Of a stretch of 36,265 nt of DNA, positions 2,445 to 36,128 are shown piece by piece. The notes beneath the pieces were generated by a model, which worked only from the letters and a program-made list of their open reading frames with translations, was not told where the DNA came from and did not search any database. Made by a program: the position numbers and the translations under genes. The first letter of the stretch is position 1; each line of letters begins with the position of its first letter. This DNA comes from Anaerolineae bacterium. GTDB taxonomy: Bacteria > Chloroflexota > Anaerolineae > 4572-78 > J111. The stretch is from NCBI GenBank assembly GCA_016931895.1, contig JAFGDY010000259.1, positions 1-36,265 of the forward strand. Reading direction: 5' to 3'.

Positions 2445-2446
2445 TT

Positions 2447-3634: not shown

Positions 3635-3643
3635 GGGGGTGAT

Positions 3644-4285
3644 ATGTCAAAATTGACTGAACAAATGAAAACCTGGGCAAACACATTTGGCCAGGAATAC
3701 ACCAATAGAAATGCTATGTCGTTAGAAGAGATGGAGGCTTTGTACAAAAGCCGGTATGGCCTGACCAGAACCGAATTGAATCAGAGGTTTTTAAAAGGAA
3801 TAGACCCTTCCATTCGGATTCTGGAAGTTGGCTCCAATGTGGGCAATCAGTTGTTATGTTTGCAGCAGATGGGCTTCCGTAATCTTTATGGGATAGAATT
3901 ACAAAGTTATGCGGTTGAGCTTTCCAAATCGCGCACCCGGCAAATTAATATCATTGAGGGGTCGGCCTTTGATATTCCCTACGAGGACGATTACTTTGAT
4001 TTGGTTTTTACTTCCGGGGTGCTTATCCATATCAGCCCGGCTGATATGGCCGGGGCGTTACAAGAAATATACAGATGTGCCAAACATTATATTTGGGGAT
4101 TTGAGTATTACGCTGATGCGTACACTGAAATTTCATACAGGGAGCACGCGAACCTGCTCTGGAAAACCAATTTTGCCAAACTATATCTTGATTTATTTGC
4201 TGATTTGGCCTTGGTTAAAGAAGAAAAAATTTATCACCTTGATAGTGATAATGTAGATTCAATGTTTCTGCTCAAGAAAGTATAA
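3644..4285 (+). CDS. Pseudaminic acid biosynthesis-associated methylase (class I SAM methyltransferase)
   Basis: 213 residues. The SAM-binding motif I is ILEVGSNVGNQ (around 60-70), followed by the acidic loop GIELQSYAVE and a post-I/motif II region YFDLVFTSGVLIHI. The N-terminus (LTEQMKTWANTFGQEYTNRN) and the internal WGFEYYADAYTEISYREHANLLWKTNFAKLY stretch (given here only as the region about 145-180) match the small family I know as the pseudaminic-acid-associated methylase (TIGR03587), found next to pse genes. The substrate is unproven; O- or N-methylation of the nonulosonic acid or its UDP precursor is a reasonable inference from the family's context. A GGGGGTG ribosome-binding site precedes the ATG, and pseF-like starts six bases after the stop. 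Confidence 0.85.
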   Translation: MSKLTEQMKTWANTFGQEYTNRNAMSLEEMEALYKSRYGLTRTELNQRFLKGIDPSIRILEVGSNVGNQLLCLQQMGFRNLYGIELQSYAVELSKSRTRQINIIEGSAFDIPYEDDYFDLVFTSGVLIHISPADMAGALQEIYRCAKHYIWGFEYYADAYTEISYREHANLLWKTNFAKLYLDLFADLALVKEEKIYHLDSDNVDSMFLLKKV

Positions 4286-4290
4286 AACGG

Positions 4291-5022
4291 ATGCGTGTTG
4301 TTGCCATTACCCAGGCCCGTATGGGCAGCACCCGTTTACCGGGTAAAGTGCTTAAACCTATTGGTGAAAAAACAATGCTGGCGCGGGTAATAAACCGGGC
4401 CAAACAGGCTTGTCTTGTGAACGAGGTGGTTGTGGCCACCACGGTTGAACCGGCGGACCAGGCTATTGTGGCCGAGTGCAAACATCTTGGCGTATCTTAC
4501 TTTTGTGGGAGTGAAGAGGATGTTTTGGATAGATTTTATCAGGCCGCGCAGGCTCACCGGGCTGAAGGAGTGGTTCGTATCACGGCCGATTGTCCCTTTA
4601 TTGAACCAACGGTGATAGACAAGGTTGTTAGTGTATTTCTGGCAAAACAACCCGATTATGCCAGTAACGTTTTGGAGCGCACTTACCCCCGGGGCCTGGA
4701 TGTGGAAGTGATGAAGTTTGAAACCTTGAGTTTGGCCTGGCAAGAAGCAGTTGAAATTTATCAACGAGTGCATGTAACCCCCTATATTTATCAAAACCCT
4801 GATAAGTTTTCTTTGTTGGCTATTACGGCTGAGACAAACCACAGTGATTATCGTTGGACAGTAGATACGCCTGAAGATTTGGAATTTGCCCAATCCATAT
4901 ATGCTCGATTAGATAATAACGAAACTTTTAACTGGCAAGATGTACTCAGCTTATTGGCTCAAGAACCCGACCTGATAGATTTGAATCGTCGTATTTGCCA
5001 GAAATCATTACAAGACGCATGA
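4291..5022 (+). CDS. pseF: SpsF-type cytidylyltransferase, probable CMP-pseudaminic acid synthetase
   Basis: 243 residues with the nucleotidyltransferase signature QARMGSTRLPGKVL at residues 8-21, where the Arg/Lys residues grip the CTP phosphates. The second signature is VVRITADCPFIEP, whose Asp should coordinate metal. Sequence style is that of the SpsF group (COG1861) rather than the NeuA/Campylobacter PseF group. SpsF-type enzymes serve as the CMP-transfer step in Bacillus spore-coat and related pseudaminic acid clusters. Because no other cytidylyltransferase is present and the gene directly precedes pseG, I assign the CMP activation of pseudaminic acid; this substrate call is inference. 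The TGA overlaps the pseG ATG by four bases (ATGA), indicating translational coupling. Confidence 0.8.
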   Translation: MRVVAITQARMGSTRLPGKVLKPIGEKTMLARVINRAKQACLVNEVVVATTVEPADQAIVAECKHLGVSYFCGSEEDVLDRFYQAAQAHRAEGVVRITADCPFIEPTVIDKVVSVFLAKQPDYASNVLERTYPRGLDVEVMKFETLSLAWQEAVEIYQRVHVTPYIYQNPDKFSLLAITAETNHSDYRWTVDTPEDLEFAQSIYARLDNNETFNWQDVLSLLAQEPDLIDLNRRICQKSLQDA

Positions 5023-6059
5023 CTGCTGGAACAAAAAGACTGGTTATCCGGGCCGACGCCAATACCCGCATTGGTTCCGGCCACGTAATGCGCTGCCTGG
5101 CTCTGGCTCAGGCCTGGCAGGACGCCGGCGGCAGCGTGAGTTTTGTGATGGCAGCGGCCAATACCGCCCTTGCAGACCGTTTAACATCTGAGGGGATGGC
5201 CTGGGTTAATTTGCCGGTTGAGCCGGGCAGTGTTGAGGATGCAACCCAGACGGCGAACCTGGCCCATGAGCAGAAAGCGTTGTGGGTGGTGGTTGATGGG
5301 TATCACTTTTTGGCCGGTTATCAACGCATCATCAAAGAATCAGGGTTAAAACTTTTGTACCTTGATGATTACGGCCACGCCCATCATTATTACGCCGATG
5401 TGGTGTTGAATCAAAATATCTATGCCCATGAGGGTTTGTATGCTCATCGAGAGGCGTCCACCCAACTGTTGTTGGGAACGCCCTACATCCTTTTACGGCG
5501 AGAGTTTACGCAATGGCGCAATTGGGCCAGAGAAATTTCTCAAACGGGACGCAAGATATTGGTCACGCTTGGCGGCGCCGACCCGGAGAATGTTACGCTG
5601 GCCGTGGTGCAGGCTTTAGAGAAGGTTCCCATTGAAAACTTGGCAGCGGTTGTTGTGATTGGCGCAAACAATCCTCACGAGGCAGAACTTCGCTCGGCGC
5701 TCAATTGTTCCTCTTTGTCCATCTGTTTGCGGAAGGATGTGCTGAATATGCCTGAACTTATGGCCTGGGCCGATATTGCCATAGCTGCCGCCGGGAGTAC
5801 GGCCTGGGAACTTGCTTTTATGGGCTTGCCCAGCCTGCTCCTGGTTCTGGCCGATAATCAACATCCCGTGGCCAAATGCCTGGACGCCAGGAAAATTGCC
5901 ATTCATTTAGATGGTCACAATCTTTCTGACCAAATAAGTCAGGCCGCCCAGCAATTATCGGCAGTAAGAGTGCGGCAGTCTATGTCGCAACTGGGACGCG
6001 ATTTAGTGGATGGTGAGGGATGCCAGAGAGTGTTGAGGCAGTTAAAAAATTTAACCTAA
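5019..6059 (+). CDS. pseG: UDP-2,4-diacetamido-2,4,6-trideoxy-beta-L-altropyranose hydrolase
   Basis: 346 residues, a GT-B-fold hydrolase that removes UDP to release 6-deoxy-AltdiNAc for condensation by PseI. The N-terminal signature RADANTRIGSGHVMRCLALA (residues 11-30) contains the catalytic base His22, equivalent to His17 of Campylobacter PseG. The C-terminal half holds the UDP-binding loop AAGSTAWELAFMGLPSLLL-type sequence. I chose ATG at 5019, which overlaps the previous stop as ATGA, over a TTG at 4995 that would add eight unaligned residues. The 3' end overlaps the acetyltransferase gene by 40 bases. Length is typical; some homologues fuse a PseH domain at the C-terminus, and here it is a separate, overlapping gene. 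Confidence 0.94.
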   Translation: MTAGTKRLVIRADANTRIGSGHVMRCLALAQAWQDAGGSVSFVMAAANTALADRLTSEGMAWVNLPVEPGSVEDATQTANLAHEQKALWVVVDGYHFLAGYQRIIKESGLKLLYLDDYGHAHHYYADVVLNQNIYAHEGLYAHREASTQLLLGTPYILLRREFTQWRNWAREISQTGRKILVTLGGADPENVTLAVVQALEKVPIENLAAVVVIGANNPHEAELRSALNCSSLSICLRKDVLNMPELMAWADIAIAAAGSTAWELAFMGLPSLLLVLADNQHPVAKCLDARKIAIHLDGHNLSDQISQAAQQLSAVRVRQSMSQLGRDLVDGEGCQRVLRQLKNLT

Positions 6060-6532
6060 AATTAAGACCGGCTCAAAAAAGTGATTGCCAATTAATTTGG
6101 GAATGGGCCAACGACCCGGAGGCGCGTAAAGTATCCTTTTCTTCAGATTTTATTCCATGGGAGCAACATCTGGCCTGGTTTCAGCAAAAGCTCACCGACT
6201 CAAAAGTTCTCCTTTTTTTGGCCCTGAATGAGCAGGATATACCCATTGGGCAAGTTCGTTATGAGATTGATGAGAAGAATGAGGCGGTGATTTCTATCAG
6301 TGTGGCCAAAGAGTTTCGCGGCCAGGGTTATGGCCCTGCCCTCATTGAGCGTGGTGGTGAAAAACTTTTTGCCTTGACCAGGGTGGGGGTTGTGCATGCC
6401 TATGTGACCCCACCCAATCACGCCTCTGTTCGCGCTTTTATCACGGCAGGTTTTGAGCAGGTAGGAACAACAGTTATTAAAGGACAACAGGCCTTACACT
6501 TTGTTTGGCAGAGAGATAGAAATAGCCAATAG
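6020..6532 (+). CDS. pseH: GNAT acetyltransferase, PseH-like (UDP-4-amino-sugar N-acetyltransferase)
   Basis: 170 residues of the Acetyltransf_3/GNAT type. Visible features are LRPAQKSDCQLIWEWANDPE at the N-terminus, WEQHLAWFQQKL (about 49-60), and the acetyl-CoA pyrophosphate loop RGQGYG in ISVAKEFRGQGYGPALIE. It should transfer acetyl from acetyl-CoA to the C4 amine made by PseC. The gene begins 40 bases inside the end of pseG in another frame, with GTGAGGG just upstream of the ATG acting as ribosome-binding site. Specificity is assigned from position between pseG and the amidotransferase gene and from the absence of another GNAT enzyme in the pathway. Another acyl group is possible. Confidence 0.85.
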   Translation: MPESVEAVKKFNLKLRPAQKSDCQLIWEWANDPEARKVSFSSDFIPWEQHLAWFQQKLTDSKVLLFLALNEQDIPIGQVRYEIDEKNEAVISISVAKEFRGQGYGPALIERGGEKLFALTRVGVVHAYVTPPNHASVRAFITAGFEQVGTTVIKGQQALHFVWQRDRNSQ

Positions 6533-6557
6533 TGTTCAACCTTTAGGAGAATGTAAA

Positions 6558-7805
6558 ATGAGATATATTAAATATTGTAAACGCTGTATTATGCCTGAAA
6601 CCAAACCAGACCTTTACATTGATGAGACGGGCGTTTGTAATGCCTGCCGCAATTATGAACGGCGGCAGGAGATAGATTGGGACCAACGCCGGCAAGAGCT
6701 GCTTGCTATTCTTGAGCGTTATCGTTCTAAGAATGGCAATAACTATGACTGCGTTATCCCTGTCAGCGGCGGTAAAGACAGCCATTATCAAACGCTCCGC
6801 ATATTAGAACTGGGCATGAACCCCCTATGCGTTACGGCTACCACGGATAAACTATCCGCCATCGGCAGGCGAAATATTGAAAACCTGAAACTCCAGGGTG
6901 TTGATTACGTTGAGGTGACTGTCAATCCGGTGGTGAGACGAAACATAAACCGCTTGGCTCTCACCCAGGTGGGAGACATCTCGTGGCCTGAGCATGTTAC
7001 CATTTTTACTATCCCGGTACGTATTGCGGTTCAGTTCAATATTCCGTTGATTGTTTGGGGAGAAAACTCCCAGAATGAGTATGGCGGTCCGGCGGCGGCG
7101 GCAGAAAACAATGTATTAACCCGCCGTTGGTTAGAAGAATTTGGCGGGTTGTTGGGACTGCGTGTTTCAGACTTGATTGGACAGGCAGGTATTGAGGCCA
7201 GACACCTTATCCAATATACCTACCCCTCCGACGAGGAGTTGCAGCGGTCAGGCGTCACCGGCATCTTTTTAGGGTATTACCTGCCCTGGGATGGGTATGG
7301 GAACGCCCTCTTCTCGCAGGCGCATGGATTTGAAACTTATCACCAACCGGTGGAGGGGTCGCTGGTAAATTATGAGAACCTGGATAATGCGCAGACCGGC
7401 ATCCACGATTATTTTAAATTCTTAAAATATGGTTTTGGCCGGGCCACTGATTTGGCGTGCATGCATGTCCGGCGCGGCCGTCTTTCAAGAAACGATGCGG
7501 TTAAATTGGTCAAAAAGCACGACGGGAAATTTCCGTGGGTATACCTGGGCGTGCCCCTTGAGGAAATTTTGGATGATATTGATATGAGCCTGGATGAATT
7601 TGTTGGGGTTTGTGACCGTTTTACCAACAAAAAACTTTTTGTTTGTGACACGCGCGGCAACCTGGTTAAGGACCGGCATGGCAATCTTACCAAAATTAAT
7701 TATGATAACGTGGCTAGCGACGACGAGACAACAACCCTGGAGCGCCTTACCCTGGGATACCGCATGCTGGCAGGTTCTGAGGTAGGCGCCAAATTACAAG
7801 ATTGA
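6558..7805 (+). CDS. pseA: N-acetyl sugar amidotransferase (PseA/WbpG family)
   Basis: 415 residues. A four-cysteine zinc-ribbon-like motif lies at the N-terminus (Cys7, Cys10, Cys27, Cys30), followed by the ATP pyrophosphatase P-loop SGGKDS at residues 70-75. The GENSQNEYGGP stretch further on is typical of the WbpG/PseA/PtmG group (TIGR03573). These enzymes activate an N-acetyl group on a sugar with ATP and replace its oxygen with ammonia, giving an acetamidino group as in Pse5Ac7Am, LPS amidino sugars or legionaminic derivatives. I chose the ATG at 6558 because it has an AGGAGA site seven bases upstream; a longer start at 6501 inside pseH adds an unaligned leader. HisH and HisF homologues follow directly and should supply the ammonia. 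Confidence 0.92.
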   Translation: MRYIKYCKRCIMPETKPDLYIDETGVCNACRNYERRQEIDWDQRRQELLAILERYRSKNGNNYDCVIPVSGGKDSHYQTLRILELGMNPLCVTATTDKLSAIGRRNIENLKLQGVDYVEVTVNPVVRRNINRLALTQVGDISWPEHVTIFTIPVRIAVQFNIPLIVWGENSQNEYGGPAAAAENNVLTRRWLEEFGGLLGLRVSDLIGQAGIEARHLIQYTYPSDEELQRSGVTGIFLGYYLPWDGYGNALFSQAHGFETYHQPVEGSLVNYENLDNAQTGIHDYFKFLKYGFGRATDLACMHVRRGRLSRNDAVKLVKKHDGKFPWVYLGVPLEEILDDIDMSLDEFVGVCDRFTNKKLFVCDTRGNLVKDRHGNLTKINYDNVASDDETTTLERLTLGYRMLAGSEVGAKLQD

Positions 7806-7826
7806 GGGTGAATTGCGAGTAGCGTG

Positions 7827-8444
7827 ATGAATAAAGTGGCTATTGTTGATTACGGCATGTGCAACCTGGACTCCGTGGCCCGGGCCGTGGAAGAATGTGG
7901 CGGCCAGCCGATGGTCACTGACGAGGCCGGTGATTTTGAGATTGCTCATCGTATCATCTTGCCCGGCGTGGGGGCCTTTCCCGACGCGATGCGTAACATC
8001 AGGCAGCGGTCGCTTGATGAAATCCTGGCGGAACAGGTGTTTGGTAAACAAATCCCTTTTTTGGGAATTTGTTTGGGCATGCAGTTGTTGGCGACAAAAG
8101 GTTGGGAAGGCGGTGAAACCGCCGGTTTAGGCTGGATTGAGGGGGAGGTGCAGCGGTTGCAGCCGCTTGATAATACCACTCGCATTCCCCATATTGGCTG
8201 GAATGAAGTCATTTTTAACCGGACCTCCTGGCTATTTGAGGGGGTGCCATCGGGTAAGGATTTTTATTTTGTCCATAGTTACCATTTTGGCTGCGCCAAA
8301 CCTCAAAATATCCTGGCCTATACTCCTTATTGCGGTCAGTTTGTCTCCGCGGTAGGCCGTGATTGGATTTGGGGGGTGCAATTTCATCCAGAAAAAAGCC
8401 AGCAGTTGGGATTTCAGGTCCTTAAGAACTTTTTGGCTATTTGA
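7827..8444 (+). CDS. hisH: HisH-like glutamine amidotransferase subunit for sugar amidation
   Basis: 205 residues, class I glutaminase. The nucleophile elbow GICLGMQLL contains Cys82, and the C-terminal GVQFHPEKSQ supplies His187 and Glu189, completing the triad. The oxyanion-hole loop PGVGAF is at 46-51. The sequence is a normal HisH, but its neighbours are PseA and a HisF homologue and no other histidine genes are present. It is therefore most likely the HisH2-type subunit that hydrolyses glutamine and feeds ammonia through HisF to PseA. ATG at 7827 is preferred; a GTG three bases earlier would add one residue. The gene starts 21 bases after pseA. Confidence 0.88.
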   Translation: MNKVAIVDYGMCNLDSVARAVEECGGQPMVTDEAGDFEIAHRIILPGVGAFPDAMRNIRQRSLDEILAEQVFGKQIPFLGICLGMQLLATKGWEGGETAGLGWIEGEVQRLQPLDNTTRIPHIGWNEVIFNRTSWLFEGVPSGKDFYFVHSYHFGCAKPQNILAYTPYCGQFVSAVGRDWIWGVQFHPEKSQQLGFQVLKNFLAI

Positions 8445-8454
8445 GGGACAGTTT

Positions 8455-9210
8455 ATGCTCAAAGTGCGGATTATGCCCACGCTCCTATTTAAAGATGTGG
8501 GCCTGGTTAAAGGCGTGAGTTTTGATTCTTGGCGGCGAGTGGGCAGCGCCATGCAGGCCATCAAGGTTTATAATATGCGCGGGGTTGATGAATTGGTTTT
8601 TTTGGATATTACGGCTACAAATGACGAGCGCCCGCCCGACTTTGAAACAGTGGATGACCTGGCCGATGAATGTTTTATGCCCATGACCGTTGGCGGCGGC
8701 GTGCGTACTATAGATGATGTCCGGCACATGCTTCAGGTTGGCGCGGATAAGGTCTCCATCAATACCGCCGCGGTGGAAAACCCCGCCCTGATTAGACAGG
8801 CCGCGCAAAAGTTTGGGGTTCAGTGCGTTGTTGTGTCTATTGATGCCAAACAAACAGGCCGGGGGTATGAGGTGTATACCCATTCAGGAACGCAACCGGC
8901 AGGACTTGAGCCGGTGATGTGGGCCCGAGAGGTTGAAAAATTGGGCGCAGGCGAAATTCTGTTGACTTCGATTGATTGTGATGGAACGATGACCGGCTAT
9001 GACCTTGAACTAACCCGTGCCGTCAGTGAAGCTGTGTCTATCCCGGTCATTGCTTCGGGTGGCGCAGGAAATTATGAACATATGGTTGAAGCATTGCGAG
9101 AAGGAAAAGCCTCAGCGTTGGCAGCTGCCAGTATCTTTCACTTTACGCAACAAACACCATTGGAAGCAAAACACTATCTTCAAGAGCGCGGTTTTAAGGT
9201 GCGTTTGTAG
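8455..9210 (+). CDS. hisF: HisF-like ammonia-channel subunit for sugar amidation (cyclase paralogue)
   Basis: 251 residues of the (beta/alpha)8 HisF fold. The phosphate-binding loops MTVGGGVR and IASGGAGNYEHM are intact, as is the half-barrel motif VVSIDAK holding the Asp equivalent to D130. The N-terminal strand reads MPTLLFKD where histidine-pathway HisF has IPCLDVKD, so the catalytic Asp11 is Leu11. This fits a paralogue that passes ammonia from HisH rather than making imidazole glycerol phosphate. The start is ATG at 8455 with a TGAGGGA site; it aligns residue for residue with canonical HisF, and the upstream in-frame extension overlaps hisH and has no counterpart. Confidence 0.9.
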   Translation: MLKVRIMPTLLFKDVGLVKGVSFDSWRRVGSAMQAIKVYNMRGVDELVFLDITATNDERPPDFETVDDLADECFMPMTVGGGVRTIDDVRHMLQVGADKVSINTAAVENPALIRQAAQKFGVQCVVVSIDAKQTGRGYEVYTHSGTQPAGLEPVMWAREVEKLGAGEILLTSIDCDGTMTGYDLELTRAVSEAVSIPVIASGGAGNYEHMVEALREGKASALAAASIFHFTQQTPLEAKHYLQERGFKVRL

Positions 9211-9242
9211 GTTTATTATTTTGATAGGGAATAGATTTTATC

Positions 9243-10655
9243 ATGAATATTGTTTTAATTAATGTTTCTGTGCGGCCTTATATGGATAAGGCCTACTTTC
9301 CAACCGGACTTGCTTATGTTGCCACGGCATTGAAACGAAATGGATATGAATTCGACATTATTGACCTTGAGGCGCATCGCCATTCTGATGCAGAATTGGC
9401 AGAATTGCTTGGCAAAAAATCTTATAAAGTTATCGCCTTGGGGACCCTGGTTTCCGGATATAAGTATGCTAAAAAAGTGGTGTCTATTGCCAAAAGAACA
9501 AATCCTGGAGCTACGATCATTGCCGGCAATTCCGTGGCATCTTCCATTCCGGAACATCTGCTAACGTATACAGAGGTGGATATTGCCGTCAAGGGCGAAG
9601 GTGACATCACCATAATCAACATTATGAAAGCTTTAGAAGGCAAAACCTCTCTGTCAGATGTAAAGGGGATTGTTTTTCTGGATGATGGTCACATGGTGGA
9701 TACAGGCTATGCCGAAATCATCAAAGATATTAATACAATTCCTTTTCCGGACTGGGATTTGTTTGATATGAATTTGTATCTCAGCAAGTCCATTCAGGAT
9801 GTGCCTGAACCTTATCCGATACCCAAGGAACAAATAAAAGCCTTTGTAGTGAACACCGCTCGCGGCTGCCCTTTTGGCTGCTCGTTCTGCTATCATGTGT
9901 TTCAATACGCCAAGTATCGGTATCGCTCTCCCGAATCAATTATTGCAGAAGTGGCGACCCTTCAGGAAAAATATGGCATCAATTACATTAATTTCTTTGA
10001 TGAACTCACCTTTTTGAGTATAAAGCAGACGGAAGCATTTGCAGATGCTTTACTCTCCAGTGACTTAAAATTCTATTGGAATGCCGACATACGCGGCAAT
10101 CTTTTCACTGAGAATAATTTAGATCTTTTGTTCAAACTAAAAGAGGGCGGCTGTCAAAGTTTTGGCTATTCTCTGGAGTCAGGGAATCCGGAAATTCTCA
10201 AAACTATGAATAAAAAGTTAAAAGTAGAAGATTTCAAAAAGCAAAAAAGAGCACTGGACAAAGCAGGAATCAAGACTTTTACCAGTCTTGTTCTGGGGTA
10301 TCCTCAAGAAACGGTAGAAACCCTTAAGGATACATTTGATGTTTGTTATGAACTTAATCTTTACTCCAGCGCGGGATATCTTTTACCCCAGCCCGGCACT
10401 CCTATGTTTGAGGTGGCTAAACAAAAAGGGTTCGCTGATGATTTGGAATCATATTTGATGCAAATGGGAGATCGACAGGACCTGAGATTTAATATGACTA
10501 ATATACCTGACCACGTGTTAGAAAAAGAGGTAAACAAATATCTCCGGCGTATTTCTGATAAAATAGGCTTAGGGTTAACAGATGAACAACTTGTAAAAAC
10601 GTTTTCGTTTATTTTATCAGATGAAGATCGTTCGAATGACTATCAAAATCAATAA
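9243..10655 (+). CDS. B12-binding domain radical SAM protein in the pseudaminic acid operon
   Basis: 470 residues. Residues 1-140 have the cobalamin-binding fold pattern (YFPTGLAYVATALKRNGYE, IIAGNSVASSIPE, VKGEGD). A radical SAM barrel follows, with the cluster motif CPFGCSFC giving Cys209, Cys213 and Cys216. Downstream are the radical SAM stretch YINFFDELTF and the typical ...YSLESGNPEILKTMNKK and LVLGYPQET segments. B12-radical SAM enzymes often methylate unactivated carbons or phosphinates, but some do ring contractions or other chemistry. The actual reaction is unknown. Its end overlaps the pseI start, so it is made with the pathway, suggesting a carbon-level modification of the sugar or its precursor. 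By eye the gene looks richer in A and T than its neighbours. Confidence 0.85.
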   Translation: MNIVLINVSVRPYMDKAYFPTGLAYVATALKRNGYEFDIIDLEAHRHSDAELAELLGKKSYKVIALGTLVSGYKYAKKVVSIAKRTNPGATIIAGNSVASSIPEHLLTYTEVDIAVKGEGDITIINIMKALEGKTSLSDVKGIVFLDDGHMVDTGYAEIIKDINTIPFPDWDLFDMNLYLSKSIQDVPEPYPIPKEQIKAFVVNTARGCPFGCSFCYHVFQYAKYRYRSPESIIAEVATLQEKYGINYINFFDELTFLSIKQTEAFADALLSSDLKFYWNADIRGNLFTENNLDLLFKLKEGGCQSFGYSLESGNPEILKTMNKKLKVEDFKKQKRALDKAGIKTFTSLVLGYPQETVETLKDTFDVCYELNLYSSAGYLLPQPGTPMFEVAKQKGFADDLESYLMQMGDRQDLRFNMTNIPDHVLEKEVNKYLRRISDKIGLGLTDEQLVKTFSFILSDEDRSNDYQNQ

Positions 10656-11685
10656 CCGTTTCATTGGACCCGGCAGCCCGGTTTATATCATCGCCGAAAT
10701 GTCGGCCAATCATAACCAGGATTTTGCCCGGGCAGTTAAACTGCTTGAAGCGGCCAAAGAGGCTGGCGCCGATGCGGTCAAACTCCAAACGTATACCCCG
10801 GATACAATAACCATTGACTGCGATAATGAATATTTTCAAATTGGGGCAGGGACTATTTGGGCCGGTCGTAAGCTTTATGAACTCTATGGACAGGCTTATA
10901 CCCCCTGGGAATGGCAGCCCAAGTTGAAAGCGCTGGCCGATGAGTTAGACCTGGCCCTTTTTTCCACTCCTTTTGATAAAACGGCTGTGGATTTTTTAGA
11001 AGCAATGGAGGTGCCGGCCTACAAGATTGCCTCGTTTGAAGTGATAGATTTGCCCCTTATCCGGCGCATTGCTCAAACCGGCAAGCCCATTATCATGTCT
11101 ACCGGCATGGGCACCCTGGCCGAGATTGATGAGGCGGTTCAGACCATTCGGGCGGCGGGCAACGCCCAACTGGTTTTGCTCAAATGCACCAGCGCCTATC
11201 CCGCTCCCCCGGCGGAGATGAATCTGCGGACGGTTCCTCATTTAGCCGAGGCGTTTGGGGTGCCCGCTGGATTGTCTGACCATACTTTGGGGATTGCCGT
11301 GCCGGTAGCGGCGGTGGCCCTGGGAGCGACGGTGGTGGAAAAACATTTGACCCTCTCCCGTAATATCCCCGGCCCTGACAGCGCCTTTTCCCTGGAGCCG
11401 CACGAATTTAAGGCGATGGTTGAGGCTGTTCGGGTGGCCGAGCAGGCATTGGGCCAGGTATCTTATGAAGTCACGCCACCAGAGATGAACAGCCGGATTT
11501 TTCGTCGTTCTCTATTTGTGGTGCAGGATGTGCTGGCGGGTGAAGTTTTTACCGAGATGAATGTCCGTTCAATCCGCCCCGGGCATGGTTTGCATCCTCG
11601 TTATCTGGATGAAGTGCTGGGGCGACACGCCGCGCGTGATATTAAAAAGGGCACGCCTTTACAGTGGGAATTGTGCGGGACGTGA
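10636..11685 (+). CDS. pseI: Pseudaminic acid synthase
   Basis: 349 residues from ATG 10636 (a second ATG at 10621 would add five residues). The N-terminal TIM-barrel NeuB domain carries AEMSANHNQDFARAVKLLEA, with the SANHN motif diagnostic of PseI against the AEIGVNHNG of sialic acid synthases. ADAVKLQTYTPDT, MSTGMGTLAEIDEA, LKCTSAYPAP and LSDHTLG follow. The C-terminal SAF/antifreeze-like domain begins near residue 285 (RRSLFVVQDVLAGE...). It condenses 6-deoxy-AltdiNAc with phosphoenolpyruvate to make pseudaminic acid. The gene overlaps the radical SAM gene by 20 bases without a clear ribosome-binding site of its own, so translation is probably coupled. Confidence 0.95.
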   Translation: MTIKINNRFIGPGSPVYIIAEMSANHNQDFARAVKLLEAAKEAGADAVKLQTYTPDTITIDCDNEYFQIGAGTIWAGRKLYELYGQAYTPWEWQPKLKALADELDLALFSTPFDKTAVDFLEAMEVPAYKIASFEVIDLPLIRRIAQTGKPIIMSTGMGTLAEIDEAVQTIRAAGNAQLVLLKCTSAYPAPPAEMNLRTVPHLAEAFGVPAGLSDHTLGIAVPVAAVALGATVVEKHLTLSRNIPGPDSAFSLEPHEFKAMVEAVRVAEQALGQVSYEVTPPEMNSRIFRRSLFVVQDVLAGEVFTEMNVRSIRPGHGLHPRYLDEVLGRHAARDIKKGTPLQWELCGT

Positions 11686-27128: not shown

Positions 27129-27153
27129 GTGTAATTGGGGTGGGGTGACCAAG

Positions 27154-28077
27154 ATGAACGAAAAAACTGCCGCCATGAAAGAATTTTTAACCACTGCTGC
27201 CTCTGTTTTGCAAGAAACCAGCCATAATTTGGAAACGTTGGCCAGTGTGGCTTTGCTAAATTATGAACAGTCGCTCTCTGACCGGGAAAACGGTCGTAGT
27301 TCCGGCGATGACAAAGCCGGTTCTCAGTTGCAACAAATCGGTCAGCAGCTTTTGAAACTGGCGGAACAGAGCAAAGCGTTACAGACCTCCCTTCGGGATG
27401 GCCTTGAGGTTGTTCTCCCCAATGACGACCATTGGTCGCGGATTAGAATTTTGCAGAGCCAGGAAGAAGAGCGCGCCCAATTGGCCCACGAGTTAGAAGA
27501 GGGGGTCGGCCAATTATTGGCCAATGCGGTTTTTGAATTGGCTTCTTGCCGGCACCTGCTCACCGGCGGCCAGGACGTAACCGGGGGGCTGGATGCCTTG
27601 CAGACAGAATTGGAGCAGGGCTTGGCCGATATACGTCACTTTATTACCGATTTGGAACCGGCCACGATTTTGGGAAATTTTGGCCTGGGCGGCGGTATCC
27701 GGCGCTACCTGGAGCAATATGAAGCCCGAACCGGCCTAAAAACCCGGCTGCGCATCAACACCAATCTGGGCCGTTTGCCCAGCATCATTGAAATGGCTAT
27801 TTTTAGGATTTTGCAAGAAATATTGCACAACGTGGCTGCTCATGCCAATGCCGCCCAGGTTGACCTAGTGATTGAAGAAAACAATGCCGCCATTGAATTC
27901 AGTGTGATTGACAACGGAGATGGCCTGGTTTCAGAAAAAATCGGCGTCTCCAGAAAGAACCTGGGCTTGGCCAGAATGGTTGACTACACTGAATTGTTAA
28001 ATGGAAATTTGCGGGTTTTAAGCGAACCGGGACGCGGGACACAGGTAATTTTATCGGTGCCTTATTCAACACTTTAA
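27154..28077 (+). CDS. NarX/DegS-type sensor kinase homologue lacking the phosphoacceptor histidine
   Basis: 307 residues from ATG 27154 (GTG at 27145 would add three). There is no transmembrane segment, so it is cytoplasmic. An N-terminal helical region (1-100) leads to the HisKA_3 dimerisation helix. There the family motif ERxRIARELHDGVGQ reads ERAQLAHELEEGVGQ, putting Glu115 where the phosphorylated His should be. The ATPase domain looks intact: N box ILQEILHNVAAHA, G1 box DNGDGL, G2 box NLGLARMVDY and C-terminal GRGTQVILSVP. It may be a pseudokinase, a phosphatase, or a partner forming heterodimers with the true kinase two genes downstream. A GGGGTGGGG tract precedes the start. Confidence 0.85.
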   Translation: MNEKTAAMKEFLTTAASVLQETSHNLETLASVALLNYEQSLSDRENGRSSGDDKAGSQLQQIGQQLLKLAEQSKALQTSLRDGLEVVLPNDDHWSRIRILQSQEEERAQLAHELEEGVGQLLANAVFELASCRHLLTGGQDVTGGLDALQTELEQGLADIRHFITDLEPATILGNFGLGGGIRRYLEQYEARTGLKTRLRINTNLGRLPSIIEMAIFRILQEILHNVAAHANAAQVDLVIEENNAAIEFSVIDNGDGLVSEKIGVSRKNLGLARMVDYTELLNGNLRVLSEPGRGTQVILSVPYSTL

Positions 28078-28098: not shown

Positions 28099-28788
28099 AT
28101 GGCTAAAACAAGTGTCATGCTGGTTGACGATCATTCTCTATTTCGACAGGGACTACGCCGGGTTCTTGAAGCAGAAGAGGATTTAGAAGTGATTATGGAA
28201 GTGGCCGATGGAGAAGAAGCCTTACGCCTGGCTAAACAACTTGCGCCGGATGTAGTGATTATGGACATTAATCTGCCCCGCATGAATGGCTTGCAGGTGA
28301 CGCGAGAGTTGAAGCACGCGGTGCCCGAAATAGCCATCATTATGCTTACGGCTTATCATGATGATGAGCAGATTTTCCATTCGGTTCGCGCCGGGGCAGC
28401 CGCCTATTTCCCCAAAGATGTTACCCCGCGTCGTTTGGTAGAAGCTGTGCGGCAAGTCAGTCAAGGAAATTATGTAATTGATGACGAAGTGCTTGACAAA
28501 CCGGAGGTAGCCTCCTGGCTCTTGCAGCAGTTTGATAAAGTGGCCTACATTGACGGCTTGCCCAACGAGATGTTCGCCCCCCTCTCGCCGCGAGAAATGG
28601 AAATTTTGCAGCACATCGCCAAGGGTCAAAGCAATAAAGAGGTGGCCTACGAGCTGGGCATTAGCCGCCAGACCGTCAAAAACCATATGACCAGCATCCT
28701 CAGAAAACTGGCCGTAAACGACCGTACCCAGGCCGCCCTCTATGCCGTGCGCCGGGGTTGGATTCGCTTACACGATGAAGAAGAATAA
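28099..28788 (+). CDS. NarL/LuxR-family response regulator
   Basis: 229 residues. The receiver domain (1-120) has the acidic pair Asp10-Asp11 in MLVDDHS, the phosphoacceptor Asp56 in VVIMDINLPRMNG, the Thr of IIMLTAYHD and Lys106 in YFPKD. After a linker of about 40 residues, the GerE-type helix-turn-helix begins at LSPREMEILQHIAKGQSNKE and includes VAYELGISRQTVKNHMTSIL as the recognition unit. It should bind DNA as a dimer on phosphorylation and switch genes on or off. A strong AGGGAG site lies nine bases before the ATG. It sits between two kinase genes on the same strand, and the giant TadE gene downstream is a plausible target. Confidence 0.95.
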   Translation: MAKTSVMLVDDHSLFRQGLRRVLEAEEDLEVIMEVADGEEALRLAKQLAPDVVIMDINLPRMNGLQVTRELKHAVPEIAIIMLTAYHDDEQIFHSVRAGAAAYFPKDVTPRRLVEAVRQVSQGNYVIDDEVLDKPEVASWLLQQFDKVAYIDGLPNEMFAPLSPREMEILQHIAKGQSNKEVAYELGISRQTVKNHMTSILRKLAVNDRTQAALYAVRRGWIRLHDEEE

Positions 28789-28825: not shown

Positions 28826-29920
28826 ATGGAATTGCGCGCTTTGATGGCCAATGAAGATGCCGCTCCCGTGGAAGCGGCGGCTACGCCGGCCGATATCCTG
28901 GGCCAGACCGGCCAGGAGTACGAACAAATCCAAAAAGAGCTAAAAGAAATAGATATCTTGATCAAACAGAGTACGGCTGAAGTGGAGAAACTGGCCCAAC
29001 GCAACGCCCAACTCACCAATAAAGTGCGGACCATGGAGAGCAACATTGACACCGTTCCACGTCAGGATATTAAAGAAATCTACACGGCGGCCCAAGAAGC
29101 CCAGATGCGCCTCTTTATGATGCGCGGCCAGGTGGAGCAATTGCAGAGCCGGCAAGAGAACCTGAAACGGTTTGCCGACAGTTTGCACCGGGTTTTAGAA
29201 GTTTCCGGCAGCCTCTTGCCTGCCGGCGGCGAGGCCAGCAGTGTAAAAAGTAGTGAGCATGATCCCCAGAGCAATGCCATTGTTAAAATTATTGACGCCC
29301 AGGAAACCGAGCGACAACATCTATCTAACCAGTTACATGATGGCCCGGCCCAATCGCTCACCAACCTCATTCTCCAGGCCGAAATCTGTGAGCGCCTGTT
29401 CGACTCTGACCCCATGCGGGCCAGGGCCGAATTGACCGAACTCAAACACGCGGTCAGCGATACCTTCCAAAAAGTGCGCGGCTTTATTTTTGACCTCCGG
29501 CCGATGATGCTCGATGACCTGGGCCTGACGCCTACGCTCAAAAAGAGCATTGAGGATTACCAGGAAAAAACCGGCCTGGCCTGTAACTTGACCATCAGCG
29601 GCAAAGATACCCGCCTGCCGCCCCATACCGAAGTCACAGTGTTTCGGATTATCCAGCAGTCGCTGAACAATGTGCGCGACCATGCCCAGGCTACCCACGT
29701 GCAAATAGCCGTGGACGTAGCCGTTGATAAAATCACCGCCTCGGTTGAGGATGACGGCGTTGGCTTTGACGTGACCGAAGCCCTCTCTGCTTCGCAGCAG
29801 CGTAAGACCATTGGTTTGAGCACTATGCAGGAACGGATTGAGATGTTAGGCGGCGAATTGAAAATTGACAGCTCGCCAAACAAAGGCACCCGCATAGATT
29901 TTTGGCTCCCGGCAGCTTAA
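28826..29920 (+). CDS. DegS-like cytoplasmic sensor histidine kinase
   Basis: 364 residues without a transmembrane segment. Residues about 25-120 are rich in Glu, Gln, Leu and Lys and should form a long coiled coil, as in the DegS sensor domain. The DHp motif is ERQHLSNQLHDGPAQ with His171 as phosphoacceptor; HDGPAQ is the form typical of DegS. The ATPase domain follows with VFRIIQQSLNNVRDHA (N box), DDGVGF (G1) and IGLSTMQERIEMLGG (G2), ending GTRIDFWLP. It probably phosphorylates the regulator encoded just upstream. AGGAG lies ten bases before the ATG at 28826. The DegS likeness suggests a soluble internal signal rather than an external one. Confidence 0.93.
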   Translation: MELRALMANEDAAPVEAAATPADILGQTGQEYEQIQKELKEIDILIKQSTAEVEKLAQRNAQLTNKVRTMESNIDTVPRQDIKEIYTAAQEAQMRLFMMRGQVEQLQSRQENLKRFADSLHRVLEVSGSLLPAGGEASSVKSSEHDPQSNAIVKIIDAQETERQHLSNQLHDGPAQSLTNLILQAEICERLFDSDPMRARAELTELKHAVSDTFQKVRGFIFDLRPMMLDDLGLTPTLKKSIEDYQEKTGLACNLTISGKDTRLPPHTEVTVFRIIQQSLNNVRDHAQATHVQIAVDVAVDKITASVEDDGVGFDVTEALSASQQRKTIGLSTMQERIEMLGGELKIDSSPNKGTRIDFWLPAA

Positions 29921-30085: not shown

Positions 30086-30242
30086 TTTGTTTGACAAAAA
30101 AGTGAGGTTTGGTAAAAAGCGTCCAAAACCTTAAAATTAGTTGGTCACTTTATCCAACCGTATCTTTTCGGGGCAGAGTTAGACTTTATGAGTAGACAAC
30201 TGGCTAAATTTATTTGACTATTATGGTTTAAGGAGTCTGGAC

Positions 30243-33200
30243 GTGGTACGAAAAAGTCTAAAAGGTCAAAGTCTGGTAGAATTTGCCTTGATTTTGCCCC
30301 TGCTGCTGATGCTTTTGTTGGGTGTTGTTGAAGGCGCGCGCATTATCTGGGCTTATATTACGGTGCAAAATGCCGCCAGAGAGGCGGCCCGGTACGCCGT
30401 CACCGGGCGGCCTTTTGCCTGTTCCAGCGATCCTGGGGCCGACGATGTGCCAGCCGCTTATAATCCGGCAAATTATTGCGATGATGTAAGCCGGGGCGAT
30501 CCCTGGTCCCCTCAAGTGTTAACCTCAACCCGGGTGAAGGCTATTAAAGAGGAGGCGGCCAAGCATGGTAATACTTTGAACGTTACCATTATGGCCACCG
30601 GTAGTTTGCAGATGTTTAACGATCATCGGGAAACGCCAGGGGCTTTTGGGGTGGCCGTTATGGGCCAGGATGCCACCAATCAGGGCGGGCTGGCCGACTA
30701 TGCCGGACAGCCCGGCTGGGATGTTAGAGTAGAAACCTACTACAATGTTATCATGTTCGATCCCATCTACGACTTCATCATGGGCGGAAATAGCGTTCAC
30801 CTGGCCGGGCAGGTAGAGTTGCAGAACGAAGGCATAGACCCCAGCGTGAGCGGCTATACCGGTGGCATAACATTTCAATCCGATAGCTGCGCCCCTAACT
30901 GCGGGTCAAGTACGGTACCCTATATTTCGGTTCAGGATGAGTTCAACGACTTTTCCGAACCCCAGGGCAGTAACTTTAGTGTTTCCGTAAACGACCACCA
31001 GGCCAATACCGCCTATAAACTATGGTTCGTTCACCAAGCCGACCCGGCGCATGTTTATTCGCTTGATTTTGTCACCGATAACCTGGGCAGCAAACTTTTG
31101 AACTTTGTGATTTCAGCCTCGGCCCGGCCTTCTCCGGCCGGCCCGGAATACAAAATCTATACCACCCTGGCCAGTAATACCACGCCGGTGGCCGCCTGCC
31201 TGAGCGATTTGCCCACCAACGCCCCCTGTTTTCAGGTTACTATGGGCGATGCCACCGTGGAAGTGCGCAATATCAACAGCGGCGAACACAGGCAACAACC
31301 GCTGGCCCAGGCCCGCTGGCCCATTAGCTCCTCTATTCCCATTTACCTTTATGGGCATGATGTTAATACCGACTATACCATGAAGTTTAACAACCTGAAC
31401 AGCACCGCGGCCCCGGGCGAATTGTTATTTGATGGCTCCCCTACCACAATCATTCCTACGGATAGTCAATTTGGCACCAATGAAAATAACGAACCCGGCT
31501 ATTACATTGCCACCGGCTACCTGCCCGGTAACTTGACCATTGCTTCCGAAGGCCCGCTGGGGGCTGTGGCCTCCTCCACCCTTGAACTGCGGGCCGCCGA
31601 TATGAGCATTGCCGGCGAGTTGCCGGGTGTATGGCATCCCGCGGACGACATCCTATATCTTACCCTCCTGGATCATGCCCCCTTGCAGCAATACCAAGTT
31701 GTTTTTGAGGATGGTGTTACCCCGCCCTTTACGGTTCGGGCTGATGAGCGGGGGGAACTCAACTTGAGTTATGTTGTGCCTTACGGCATCCAGGAACCCT
31801 GCGCCCAAGTACCCGAGCCTGGTTGCCAACCTGTTCCGGTTGACCTTTACACCCTGGATTATAACCGGGGGCCAAACCCCAACCATATTGCCGGGCGCAC
31901 CGTTTCTATTTTCACCCCCAATGACCCTTACATCAACGTGCCCGGGGGCAGTCGGTGGCCGGCCGGTTCGCCCATCATTATTCAACTGCGACGGCACCTG
32001 GCCTTTCATGAATACGATGTCTATCTCCAGCAAGGGCCGGTTGATAGCCCCAGTTTTTCTGCTCCTATTAGATTGGGCATCAACACCCATGAAAATGGGG
32101 ATTACAATATTATGGATTATACCCTGCCCATCTCTTATAGCGGCTACTATGTGATCCGTTCTATTGACCCGGCTTTCCCGGATCAAGAAGTGGCGGCTTT
32201 TGATATTGAGATTATGGACAAACCCTATATCACCATTGACAAGGGGAATCGCTGGCCGCCCAACACCGAAATCACCATCCGTTTAAAAAATCACCCACCC
32301 CTGCCCCACGAAGTATGGGTAGACAAAGGTGGCGCCTATGAAACGTTTTTGGGCAACGTTACGGTGTATAGTGACGGCGAAGGGCCGGTAGAGTATACCA
32401 TCCCCCTCACCATGCCCACCAGAACTAACCCCGACTATTATCCCATTCAATCTTATCGTAATGGGGCCTTGATTGCCGAAACCAAGCTTGAAGTGGCCCC
32501 GGCCGATCTGTGGATTTCTCATATTGACGTGCCCGATGTTACCTTTGATATTGAAATTCCCATTACCCTGACCATTGCCAACCTCACTGCCGTGACCGTG
32601 GCCGATACCTACTTTGATACCGACATTTACGTTGACCCGGAGGCCGCGCCCAATCCTCTTGATCCGGGCTTGCCGCCAGGCGACTACAAAAACTGGTTGC
32701 AGGATGTGCCGCCTAATGGTTCGGTTACGGTTAACGATACGATTGTGCTCTTTGGCCAGGAAAGCCATCAAATTTTTGGCCGGGTTGATACCACCGGCTG
32801 GGTGGCCGAAACCGACGAATCCAACAATGTTACGCCTCTGCCCATTGACGCGGCCTGCCCGGTTAAGATAGTTGATGAGTTTTTGGGCGATGGCCTGGCC
32901 GACTGGACCCAAACCGGTTTTGGCGATAGCGGCCCCACTTGCCCCACCCTGCCCGACCTGCCGCCTGTGGGCGGGGGCGGAGACATATTGTTGGAGCGCA
33001 ATTGGGATGGGAGCAGTGTGGATGGCTTTAGCGTGGTCTATAATCCCTTTGGCACCTCGGGCATTGACACCGGCAGAACTCAATTCGGCACCCAGTCCAG
33101 GGGTGATCCGGCTGCCAACTCCCTGGCCGTGCGGATTAGAGGGCGGCAAAACAGCAATCCGGTCTCCCTGGGCGCCTCGATCCAATTTGCCAATACCCAG

Positions 33201-36128
33201 CCCAGCGTAACCATTGCTTTTGATCACCAACTTGGTTTGTTTGGCATAGATAGTAACGAGTGGGCTGAGTATTACCTGTATATAGACGGCGCGCCGTACG
33301 ATGGCGGCACCGGCAACGGCTGGTTGCTGCGCACAAACGGCAATGGCGCCAGCAGCCAATACTATCCGGCCGATAGTGATTGGCCCAGGTTCATTAGCAC
33401 CATCCCCCTGGCGCCCGGCACCCATACCTTTACCTTTGGGGCCAAAGTTGGCGCATCCGGCAACTGGGGGAACCGGTCTATTGATAACACCGGAGAATCG
33501 GTCTATGCTTATATAGATAGCCTATTGATCACCGAAAGCAGTGGCGCGCCAACCGTACCGCCCGATCCTGCCGGCATAATTTGGTCGGCCCATTACGACA
33601 GCGATGCCGAGTTGTTTGCCTTTGCCAAGGATGCCTTTTATGGTTACACCAGCTCGGGTGATGAAGACCCCAGCGGAACCTACGACAACGGCGAAGGGGC
33701 CTGGGCCAACGGCTCTTTGTATACCAAACTGGGCCGCACCAGCGGCAGCTCAACCTATACTTCTATGACCGGCGGCTGGTCTCGCCCCTTTACCGTGCCT
33801 GCCGGCGGCGGCTGTGTGACCGTTCAGGGTTACTACCGTTTGAAGTTTTCCGACTTATACGAAAATACTGAGACCGGCGAGGTATTGCTGGCGGTTGACG
33901 ATGGCGGCAGCCCCCGGCTGTTGGCCAGCGCCACCGGGGGATCGGGAGCAGTTGACACCGGTTGGCTGCCTTTTAAGGAATCTTTTACCTTGCCCCCGGG
34001 CAGCCATACCCTGATTTTGGGCGGCTATAACAACCAGGCTACTGAGAATGGTGAAATAACCGAAATCTGGTTTGACGACGTATATGTGGTGGATTCCGGC
34101 TCCGGCGTTTCAACCAGCACCCAAACCGAAAGCAGCGGCTCCTTGATCCTGACCAATAAAGGCTCAACCGGGCACAGCACCATTGGCGTGTCCAACGACA
34201 ACGCCACCGGCTCCGGTTATCACTTTATGCACCGCACCGTGGGCAGCGGCCCCTTTGAAGTATATTTTCGGGTTGACCAGGTTCCGCCTAACGGCAGCAA
34301 TGGCCTGGCCGGTTTGGAAATACGGGGGGACCATTTGCGCGGTTCATCGGAAAAAATAATGTTTGTTCTGCGCGGCGATGGCAGCCTGAGACTCTATACC
34401 CGGGTGAACGGCGGCTCCACCGTGAACGCCAAAACCCGCTCGGGCGTTTCCGCCCCGGTTTGGCTGAAGATTGCGCGCAATGGGGATGAATTTAAGCTCT
34501 ATTACGTGGTCAGCGGCAGTGAGACCCCCCCCACCGACTGGGGCGACCCCTGGGAAACGCTGACCGGTTTTATCATGCCCGCCTCGGTTGAAGTGGGCAT
34601 GGTCAATGCGCCCGGCAGCAGCAGCACCGCCTATGCGGCCAGGTTCAAGCATTTCAACCTCTGCGCCGCCTCTGCGCCCGGCGGCTCGTCTACCGGCGGC
34701 AAAGGTTATTTGGGCAGCCGGTGCGGCCAGGTGGAAGAAAACGGCAACGGCCTGGTGGTGGTTGACGCCGTGAACACTATTCTCAACCAGGCCGGCGCAG
34801 GCCACACCTGGAAAGAGATTGCGCAGGACGATGTTTTGGGCGAACCTTCTATGGAAGGCCTGGAAGCCAGCCTCGATACCGGCGCCAACCTGGCTGCCGG
34901 CGCCGGCCCGCACGCCACCTACCAGGTCAATTTTGAAACGGCCGGCGCCTATTATGTATGGGTTGGCGGTTGGGGGCCAAACAGTAACGGCGACGACGTG
35001 CACGTGGGCTTGAACGGCGCTGCGGTAGGCGTGGTTGACGGCTTCCCCACCGGTGGCAGCGCGCCCGGCTGGAAGCAGATGTCCGGCTCTATGTCCATCA
35101 ATGCCGGCATCAACACCATTGACCTGTGGGTCAAAGAAGATGGGGCCAGGGTGTTCAAAATCCTGTTGACCAACGATAGCAGCTTTGTCCCACCCCCCGA
35201 GGGCATTTCCCAGTCGGCTTGCTCCATCATTGTGCAACCGGAAGGCCCGCCTTTGTTGGAAACGTGCGAGTACCCCTTGCAAAAAGGCGACTTTGAGGGG
35301 GCCTATCTGGAAGTATACAATACCTGGCCCACCTCCGGGTTAGCTACGTTTACCTTTGCCGGCTACAATAGTAACCGCGGCGTCTTGTTCCCCATCAGTA
35401 CCATCAGGGTGCCCACGCTGTATCAGGACTTTAACCTGCCGACGAAGATTATGAGCCATACCACGGCGGCGCTTTCTTTGAAGAAAGCCGTTAGCCTGAA
35501 TGGGGCCAGCCATCCCGATGATAAACTCTACTTTGAGTTGAGGCGAGTGTCGGACGGCCATACCCTGGTTGGCCCGCTGCTGTTGGCCGATGGCCAGGAT
35601 AGAACTACAGACATGCCGCCTATTCCAGATTTTGACCCATTTCATAACGCGCCTGATCTGTGGACCGCGTATAGTGAAGATGTCTTTGCCGGCCTGAATC
35701 CTCTCTCTTTTGTGGAGCCTGGCGACGCGGTGCGCGCCTACTTCTACGCGCCTAAAGGGGCGGCAGAGAGTTCTACCGACTTTTACATAGACAACCTTAA
35801 CCTGGCCGTTTGCACCGTGCAACCCGAACCGGACCAAACCCCGGGCCTGGGCAAGATCAGCGGCAAAACCCTGCAAGGCAGCACGCCTTTGCTGGGGGCC
35901 GACGTTTGGGCTTATGCGGATGCGGCGGACGATGGCGTGCCCGGCCCGGTGTTCCAGACCCAGAGCATCCAGGACGGCACGTATCGCTTCTACAATTTGC
36001 CGCCCGGCAAATATCTGGTCTACGCCCAAATTAAAACGGCCGCCGGTACTTTCTTTGATACCCGCCGGGTTGAAGTTTATCCAAATACCGAGTCGCGCAA
36101 CGTTGTTTTGAACATCCAAACCAGTTAA
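30243..36128 (+). CDS. Giant TadE-like surface protein with Ig-like repeats, CARDB and carbohydrate-binding-like domains
   Basis: 1961 residues from GTG 30243, with AGGAG seven bases upstream. The N-terminus, KGQSLVEFALILPLLLMLLL, is a TadE pseudopilin signal: prepilin-peptidase cleavage is expected after Gly8, leaving Glu13 at +5 before the hydrophobic helix. Residues 60-200 resemble the TadE outside domain. Four Ig-like modules carry the recurring (R/V)W(P/H) then I.L..H pattern near residues 358, 463, 571 and 670. A CARDB-like domain spans about 752-873 (VTVADTYFDTDIYVD, WVAETDESNNV). Beta-rich carbohydrate-binding or concanavalin-like domains lie at about 915-1100, 1110-1290, 1300-1475 and 1500-1650. 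A carboxypeptidase-regulatory-like fold closes the protein (ISGKTLQGSTPLLGADVWAY, YRFYNLPPGKYLVYAQ). It is probably exported, membrane-anchored and adhesive. Confidence 0.85.
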   Translation: MVRKSLKGQSLVEFALILPLLLMLLLGVVEGARIIWAYITVQNAAREAARYAVTGRPFACSSDPGADDVPAAYNPANYCDDVSRGDPWSPQVLTSTRVKAIKEEAAKHGNTLNVTIMATGSLQMFNDHRETPGAFGVAVMGQDATNQGGLADYAGQPGWDVRVETYYNVIMFDPIYDFIMGGNSVHLAGQVELQNEGIDPSVSGYTGGITFQSDSCAPNCGSSTVPYISVQDEFNDFSEPQGSNFSVSVNDHQANTAYKLWFVHQADPAHVYSLDFVTDNLGSKLLNFVISASARPSPAGPEYKIYTTLASNTTPVAACLSDLPTNAPCFQVTMGDATVEVRNINSGEHRQQPLAQARWPISSSIPIYLYGHDVNTDYTMKFNNLNSTAAPGELLFDGSPTTIIPTDSQFGTNENNEPGYYIATGYLPGNLTIASEGPLGAVASSTLELRAADMSIAGELPGVWHPADDILYLTLLDHAPLQQYQVVFEDGVTPPFTVRADERGELNLSYVVPYGIQEPCAQVPEPGCQPVPVDLYTLDYNRGPNPNHIAGRTVSIFTPNDPYINVPGGSRWPAGSPIIIQLRRHLAFHEYDVYLQQGPVDSPSFSAPIRLGINTHENGDYNIMDYTLPISYSGYYVIRSIDPAFPDQEVAAFDIEIMDKPYITIDKGNRWPPNTEITIRLKNHPPLPHEVWVDKGGAYETFLGNVTVYSDGEGPVEYTIPLTMPTRTNPDYYPIQSYRNGALIAETKLEVAPADLWISHIDVPDVTFDIEIPITLTIANLTAVTVADTYFDTDIYVDPEAAPNPLDPGLPPGDYKNWLQDVPPNGSVTVNDTIVLFGQESHQIFGRVDTTGWVAETDESNNVTPLPIDAACPVKIVDEFLGDGLADWTQTGFGDSGPTCPTLPDLPPVGGGGDILLERNWDGSSVDGFSVVYNPFGTSGIDTGRTQFGTQSRGDPAANSLAVRIRGRQNSNPVSLGASIQFANTQPSVTIAFDHQLGLFGIDSNEWAEYYLYIDGAPYDGGTGNGWLLRTNGNGASSQYYPADSDWPRFISTIPLAPGTHTFTFGAKVGASGNWGNRSIDNTGESVYAYIDSLLITESSGAPTVPPDPAGIIWSAHYDSDAELFAFAKDAFYGYTSSGDEDPSGTYDNGEGAWANGSLYTKLGRTSGSSTYTSMTGGWSRPFTVPAGGGCVTVQGYYRLKFSDLYENTETGEVLLAVDDGGSPRLLASATGGSGAVDTGWLPFKESFTLPPGSHTLILGGYNNQATENGEITEIWFDDVYVVDSGSGVSTSTQTESSGSLILTNKGSTGHSTIGVSNDNATGSGYHFMHRTVGSGPFEVYFRVDQVPPNGSNGLAGLEIRGDHLRGSSEKIMFVLRGDGSLRLYTRVNGGSTVNAKTRSGVSAPVWLKIARNGDEFKLYYVVSGSETPPTDWGDPWETLTGFIMPASVEVGMVNAPGSSSTAYAARFKHFNLCAASAPGGSSTGGKGYLGSRCGQVEENGNGLVVVDAVNTILNQAGAGHTWKEIAQDDVLGEPSMEGLEASLDTGANLAAGAGPHATYQVNFETAGAYYVWVGGWGPNSNGDDVHVGLNGAAVGVVDGFPTGGSAPGWKQMSGSMSINAGINTIDLWVKEDGARVFKILLTNDSSFVPPPEGISQSACSIIVQPEGPPLLETCEYPLQKGDFEGAYLEVYNTWPTSGLATFTFAGYNSNRGVLFPISTIRVPTLYQDFNLPTKIMSHTTAALSLKKAVSLNGASHPDDKLYFELRRVSDGHTLVGPLLLADGQDRTTDMPPIPDFDPFHNAPDLWTAYSEDVFAGLNPLSFVEPGDAVRAYFYAPKGAAESSTDFYIDNLNLAVCTVQPEPDQTPGLGKISGKTLQGSTPLLGADVWAYADAADDGVPGPVFQTQSIQDGTYRFYNLPPGKYLVYAQIKTAAGTFFDTRRVEVYPNTESRNVVLNIQTS

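Follow-up and report, generated by a model that had tools for sequence, protein, structure and literature searches.

The DNA analysed here (the window) is an entire contig (C259) of 36,265 bases from a genome of 6.06 Mb in 320 contigs. Near its right-hand end lies an open reading frame of 1961 codons that starts with GTG, contains no internal stop and terminates 137 bases before the contig end. It is preceded by two histidine kinase genes with a response regulator gene between them (Table 1). For the two kinases, Pfam reports HisKA_3/HATPase and a DegS-like part, and no sensor domain.

Table 1. Features of the giant TadE gene and of the genes directly upstream; numbers in brackets are residues of the encoded protein.
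Feature	Position	Strand	Basis
Second histidine kinase	27145..28077	+	Upstream; conserved in several relatives
NarL-type response regulator	28099..28788	+	Upstream; conserved
DegS-type histidine kinase	28826..29920	+	Directly upstream; conserved
Shine-Dalgarno-like AAGGAG	30230..30235	+	Sequence; 7 nt ahead of the GTG start
Giant TadE modular pilin gene	30243..36128	+	1961 aa; conserved family
Class III leader, predicted cut after Gly8 (G↓QSLVEF)	30243..30266	+	Sequence; homologues keep GQ/AQ.LVEF
TadE N-terminal helix (PF07811)	30264..30392	+	Pfam; single helix of ~46 residues in the model
Complete TadE pilin module (9–205)	30267..30857	+	HHalign; homologue identity
Ig-like module 1 (222–346)	30906..31280	+	HHalign between modules
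Ig-like module 2 (347–450)	31281..31592	+	HHalign between modules
Ig-like module 3 (451–560)	31593..31922	+	HHalign between modules
Ig-like module 4 (561–662)	31923..32228	+	HHalign between modules; model
Ig-like module 5 (663–752)	32229..32498	+	HHalign between modules; model
CARDB domain (753–875)	32499..32867	+	Pfam matches in the family; best conserved block of the extension
Variable insert (905–1253)	32955..34001	+	Partial or missing in homologues; low model confidence
ConA-like/DUF1349 lectin-type fold (1254–1478)	34002..34676	+	VIA-align; DUF1349 in 7 members
CBM6-like/GH115_C domain (1492–1644)	34716..35174	+	VIA-align; Pfam in 7 members
MAM-like jellyroll (1676–1858)	35268..35816	+	Z about 13 to meprin; stretch 793–975 of the model
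Carboxypeptidase-regulatory/transthyretin-like C-terminus (1865–1961)	35835..36125	+	Pfam in the family; pLDDT about 90

The N-terminal part of the encoded protein is that of a Tad pseudopilin. PF07811 (TadE) matches residues 8–50 above the cut-off (E = 3e-17), and the leader is of canonical class III type (KG↓QSLVEF) with Glu at +5, giving the G↓XXXXE pattern followed by a hydrophobic helix. This helix is the only hydrophobic segment in the protein, and an LPXTG-like motif, for which the protein was inspected, was not seen. When the pilin module of the family was aligned by HHalign with a comparison set of short TadE proteins (about 115–170 aa), residues 8–198 covered nearly the full template (probability 99.9%, E = 1.5e-32), which indicates that the globular TadE part is present in addition to the helix. 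The idea that the TadE match reflects a mere generic hydrophobic helix was rejected on this ground. A sequence search of the module against PDB chains returned no match up to E = 1. Judged from these sequence comparisons, the protein begins as a complete TadE pseudopilin whose prepilin cleavage motif is intact, and continues into a long extension.

Residues 222–752 of the extension consist of five Ig-like modules of ~100 residues, which are mutually homologous (pairwise HHalign probability 95–98.5%). An earlier reading of this DNA made without database searches (the sequence-only reading) had counted four related modules with RWP/VWH motifs; those four correspond to modules 2–5, and the count rises to five with the first module, from which the RWP motif is absent. 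The CARDB domain that the same reading placed behind these modules is recognized by Pfam in the corresponding half of 12 of the 21 family members (best E = 2e-11), though the sequence of the giant protein alone gives no score. Its several lectin-like β domains likewise have counterparts in fold comparisons by VIA-align: the ConA-like/DUF1349 fold gives Z = 16.5 to 3mep and 13–15 to GH43 C-terminal domains, the CBM6-like fold gives Z = 12.2 (rmsd 2.5) to CBM6E, and a MAM-like jellyroll follows. These folds are of types found in glycan-binding or polysaccharide-processing proteins. The proposed carboxypeptidase-regulatory-like fold at the C-terminus is confirmed by CarboxypepD_reg matches in family members. 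Pfam also identifies DUF1349, GH115_C (seven members, best E = 7.8e-15) and, in single members, PA14 and GLEYA; in the giant protein itself, GH115_C and CarboxypepD_reg are sub-threshold.

Two AlphaFold models (mean pLDDT 69.5 and 58.3) contain a 46-residue helix, a pilin-like α/β part and β-sandwich beads, with low confidence in the variable stretch within about residues 884–1298. Fold matches of residues 8–902 to complement, α2-macroglobulin and transglutaminase were rejected as signs of kinship, as the rmsd is large and the matches are those of generic tandem Ig-type arrays. The head profile searched against PDB chains yielded a weak NOMO2 match alone (E = 0.0095). By domain matches and predicted folds, the protein runs from TadE through a stalk of five Ig-like modules and CARDB to a head in which ConA-like, CBM6-like and MAM-like domains are combined, and ends in a TTR-like domain.

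The same fusion recurs in many genomes. Among the relatives searched, 50 of 61 genomes have a match at E ≤ 0.001, the long matches lying mainly in the same order, and 14 proteins of 1422–2356 aa are collinear end to end. A scan of named genomes added Anaerolineae, Ardenticatenia and one Thermoflexus MAG, including shorter forms of about 1050–1310 aa, so that collinear homologues of ~1050–2357 aa are found in Anaerolineae, Ardenticatenia and Thermoflexus-type Chloroflexota. Identity among homologues is 31–51% in the pilin module and 26–41% in CARDB. The pilin, CARDB, jellyroll and C-terminus are near-universal, the Ig modules are retained in closer homologues, GH115_C is variably present, and residues 905–1285 vary. 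With a profile built from the C-terminal 290 residues, about 25 of 298 genomes of the class have matches at E < 1e-50, nearly all in ORFs of 1068–2357 aa; the other matches are weaker, mostly partial and to the jellyroll. In a phylum-wide sample, just three TadE matches, among the matches listed, lie in ORFs of >1000 aa. No report of a giant TadE in Chloroflexota was found in the open-licence literature.

In one MAG (G036, contig C160), the family is represented by two adjacent genes (L153, 1084–2787 and 2890–5061). The first encodes 567 aa comprising TadE, Ig-type modules and CARDB (E = 2.6e-13). The second encodes 723 aa, of which the N-terminus resembles a signal peptide; CBM96 (E = 5.6e-36) is present together with the C-terminal region of the family (35% identity to the homologue L087, E = 1e-39). 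A TadE part encoded as a separate gene, which would have undermined the fusion, was absent from the homologues examined; the split relative separates the C-terminal head only and keeps TadE joined to the Ig modules and CARDB. This arrangement supports the division of the giant protein into stalk and head, and its CBM96 domain suggests that the likely ligand of the head is a carbohydrate.

The genome also encodes the machinery of a Tad pilus, according to an inventory compiled from searches of the genome. A lack of Tad export or peptidase genes, which would have counted against the sequence-only reading, is therefore not the case. Contig C246 carries a BNR-like gene, P227 (a 227-aa membrane protein), a 452-aa TadE, an 882-aa Tad-vWA protein, a kinase, two response regulators, a second TadE (943 aa), CpaB/RcpC, TadZ, TadA, TadB and TadC; partners for a Tad tip complex, TadE2 and a vWA-Tad protein (TadG), are encoded in addition to the core genes. 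The single A24 prepilin peptidase of the genome is on C36, and Flp-type pilins are on several contigs, with none seen between CpaB and TadZ. A search of the genome for secretin gave no match, which fits, but does not prove, a monoderm-type envelope.

Relatives with longer contigs have the order HK1–RR–HK2–giant TadE–(BNR-like)–P227–TadE2 and vWA TadG–CpaB–TadZ–TadA–TadB–TadC, in which TadE2 and TadG are sometimes reversed. Wherever sequence suffices, giant TadE precedes all other pilin genes of the tad operon, and this operon context is seen in many relatives. The window ends with HK1–RR–HK2–giant TadE and C246 starts with BNR-like–P227; because these ends match the gene order of the relatives, C259 very probably lies next to C246 in the genome, although the contig ends, compared by eye, share no overlap beyond about 13 bases.

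We consider that the gene probably encodes a modular minor pilin of a Tad (type IVc) pilus, most likely an adhesive tip subunit whose head would attach to a glycan or to a matrix ligand. In a mechanism modelled on Streptococcus (PMC8179133), Myxococcus (PMC12075869) and Caulobacter (PMC13170226), the protein would be exported by Sec, held in the membrane via its N-terminal helix and cut after Gly8 by the A24 peptidase. The pilin module may then form a tip complex with TadE2 and the vWA TadG, which would prime Flp polymerization by TadA/TadB/TadC; extension of the pilus would carry the stalk and head outward to the ligand. Expression of the operon probably depends on regulation by the adjacent HK–RR–HK genes. 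Against a tip role for the TadE protein, Herrou et al. assign the variable domain to the TadG-like subunit and not to TadE (PMC12075869), and TadG here also has a vWA domain, so that either could be the tip-capping subunit. A subunit of ~1950 residues would, moreover, have to travel through both the assembly machine and the envelope.

The sequence-only reading had left the choice between a pilus-tip and a membrane-anchored adhesin, and an adhesin of this general kind is supported. A surface adhesin that is anchored by the TadE helix and does not become part of a pilus could make do with one N-terminal hydrophobic segment, no other anchor or LPXTG-like motif is present, and the stalk is long. 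It is nevertheless unlikely, as the complete pilin module is conserved with its cleavage motif and globular part, which a plain anchor would not need, and the first place in the tad operon, by TadE2 and TadG, is conserved as well. Because of this operon position, a role at the pilus tip appears more likely than that of a mere membrane anchor.

A protein that acts chiefly as a mechanosensor or assembly primer, with head contact signalled via the pilus and answered by the HK–RR genes, would account for the presence of HK–RR–HK beside giant TadE in several relatives, and elsewhere Tad pili are reported to take part in surface sensing (PMC13170226). This appears distinctly improbable: the two kinases of the window have no sensor domain reported by Pfam, adjacency by itself is weak evidence, and Thermoflexus-type loci have giant TadE without HK–RR–HK genes in the stretch examined. 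Still more improbable is the reading in which the pilus bears a head that acts as an enzyme or processes glycans and is not an adhesin. Enzymes do occur among the fold matches, e.g., PL7 alginate lyases and VvEG16, but the best ones are DUF1349, GH43 C-terminal accessory domains, CBM6 and MAM, and the Pfam names in the family (GH115_C, DUF1349, PA14, GLEYA) include no catalytic domain. An assembly chimera or misread frame, to which nothing but the nearby contig end lends any colour, was ruled out, given an open frame of this length and the recurrence of the fusion in many assemblies made independently, some of which have just 7 or 10 contigs.

The pilus-tip adhesin favoured here has precedents. 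PilB and PilC of S. sanguinis are modular pilins that present vWA and lectin modules (PMC8179133, PMC10191384); as in the giant protein, a small pilin module is followed by a functional one, the known modules include lectin-type and PF13620 modules, and exposure at the tip is likely (PMC8179133). Because the family has CARDB, DUF1349, GH115_C and CarboxypepD_reg together with matching folds, the giant protein is, by its domain content, a modular pilin in the same sense, i.e., a pilin module joined to domains not specific to pilus biology (PMC8179133). Whereas the modular type IV pilins of the 2021 survey belong to one pilin class (the IPR012902 set) and reach at most 860 residues (PMC8179133), the giant family has the TadE of a Tad system as its carrier, measures about 1050–2357 aa, bears its several head domains on a long stalk, and is conserved across orders.

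Tad minor pilins are known to build tips that expose variable domains (PMC12075869). In KilLMN of Myxococcus (PMC12075869) and CpaJ/CpaK/CpaL of Caulobacter, which include vWA (PMC13170226), TadE/TadF/TadG-like minor pilins prime the pilus as proposed here; however, the big variable domain is on the TadG/KilN/CpaL subunit, whereas here it is on TadE and TadG has a separate vWA. Ordinary TadE proteins (PF07811) share the signal, helix and globular pilin module with the giant form, which has about 1750 extra residues. Chloroflexales have rcpC–tadZABC, tadEEG and flp, with two TadE, TadG and the same core genes (PMC7332563); the part of that paper dealing with these genes gives gene names only, and does not describe TadE sizes or a giant form. 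GhpA of Aureispira and the DUF11 filaments of Litorilinea (PMC13319060) are also long arrays of Ig-fold beads on the cell surface, and GhpA is among the fold matches. These grappling-hook filament proteins differ in anchoring, size and module families, and the GhpA match is of a generic kind, as expected of tandem Ig arrays. The architecture was proposed to be new, which appears to hold for its extreme length, TadE as the carrier, the module set and the clade-wide conservation; a module on a pilin and variable Tad tips were already known (PMC8179133, PMC12075869). The family would bring modular pilins to Tad pili in Chloroflexota, with TadE as a possible carrier and a length more than double that of the largest case in the 2021 survey.

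More tentatively, and with the odds somewhat against it, the stalk-and-head pilin might be a lineage-wide device in which the head is either fused or supplied as a separately secreted carbohydrate-binding protein. Tad pili of the whole clade could then display an exchangeable head for glycan recognition, borne on TadE and not on TadG and reaching tens of nanometres past the end of the filament. Most Chloroflexota of this group have not been cultured and, to our knowledge, little is known about their attachment to surfaces or flocs. The clade-wide, operon-linked set and the split homologue offer material for testing the construction and ligands of Tad tips.

Several minor observations concern other genes. 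Some Chloroflexota TadE proteins outside this family (L134, whose sequence includes a run of X, L145, L110 and L112) have different long tails, made of Calx-β-like repeats (assigned by eye) or of Thr/Pro-rich linkers with repeated domains. The 943-aa TadE of C246 (L012, 10124–12955) has four Big_9/cadherin-like repeats and shares 59% identity over 457 aa with the 452-aa TadE encoded in that locus, which suggests that one TadE gained an adhesin-like tail beside a short paralogue. P227 (L012, 1870–2553) and its relatives are ~200–265 aa long, single-pass-like and without a Pfam family, and in nearly every locus examined they are placed between giant TadE and TadE2/TadG; P227 is a candidate new Tad component of Chloroflexota. 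A second TadA-type ATPase (479 aa) is encoded on C99 (L015, 7068–8507), and T2SSF-type platform proteins were found on C246 only. Upstream in the window (1464–11685), a pseudaminic acid cluster has PseB, PseC, PseG and PseI above and a PseH-like protein below the NCBIfam cut-offs, accompanied by WbuX-type amidotransferase and HisH-like genes, and might supply sugar for glycosylation of the surface or the pilus.
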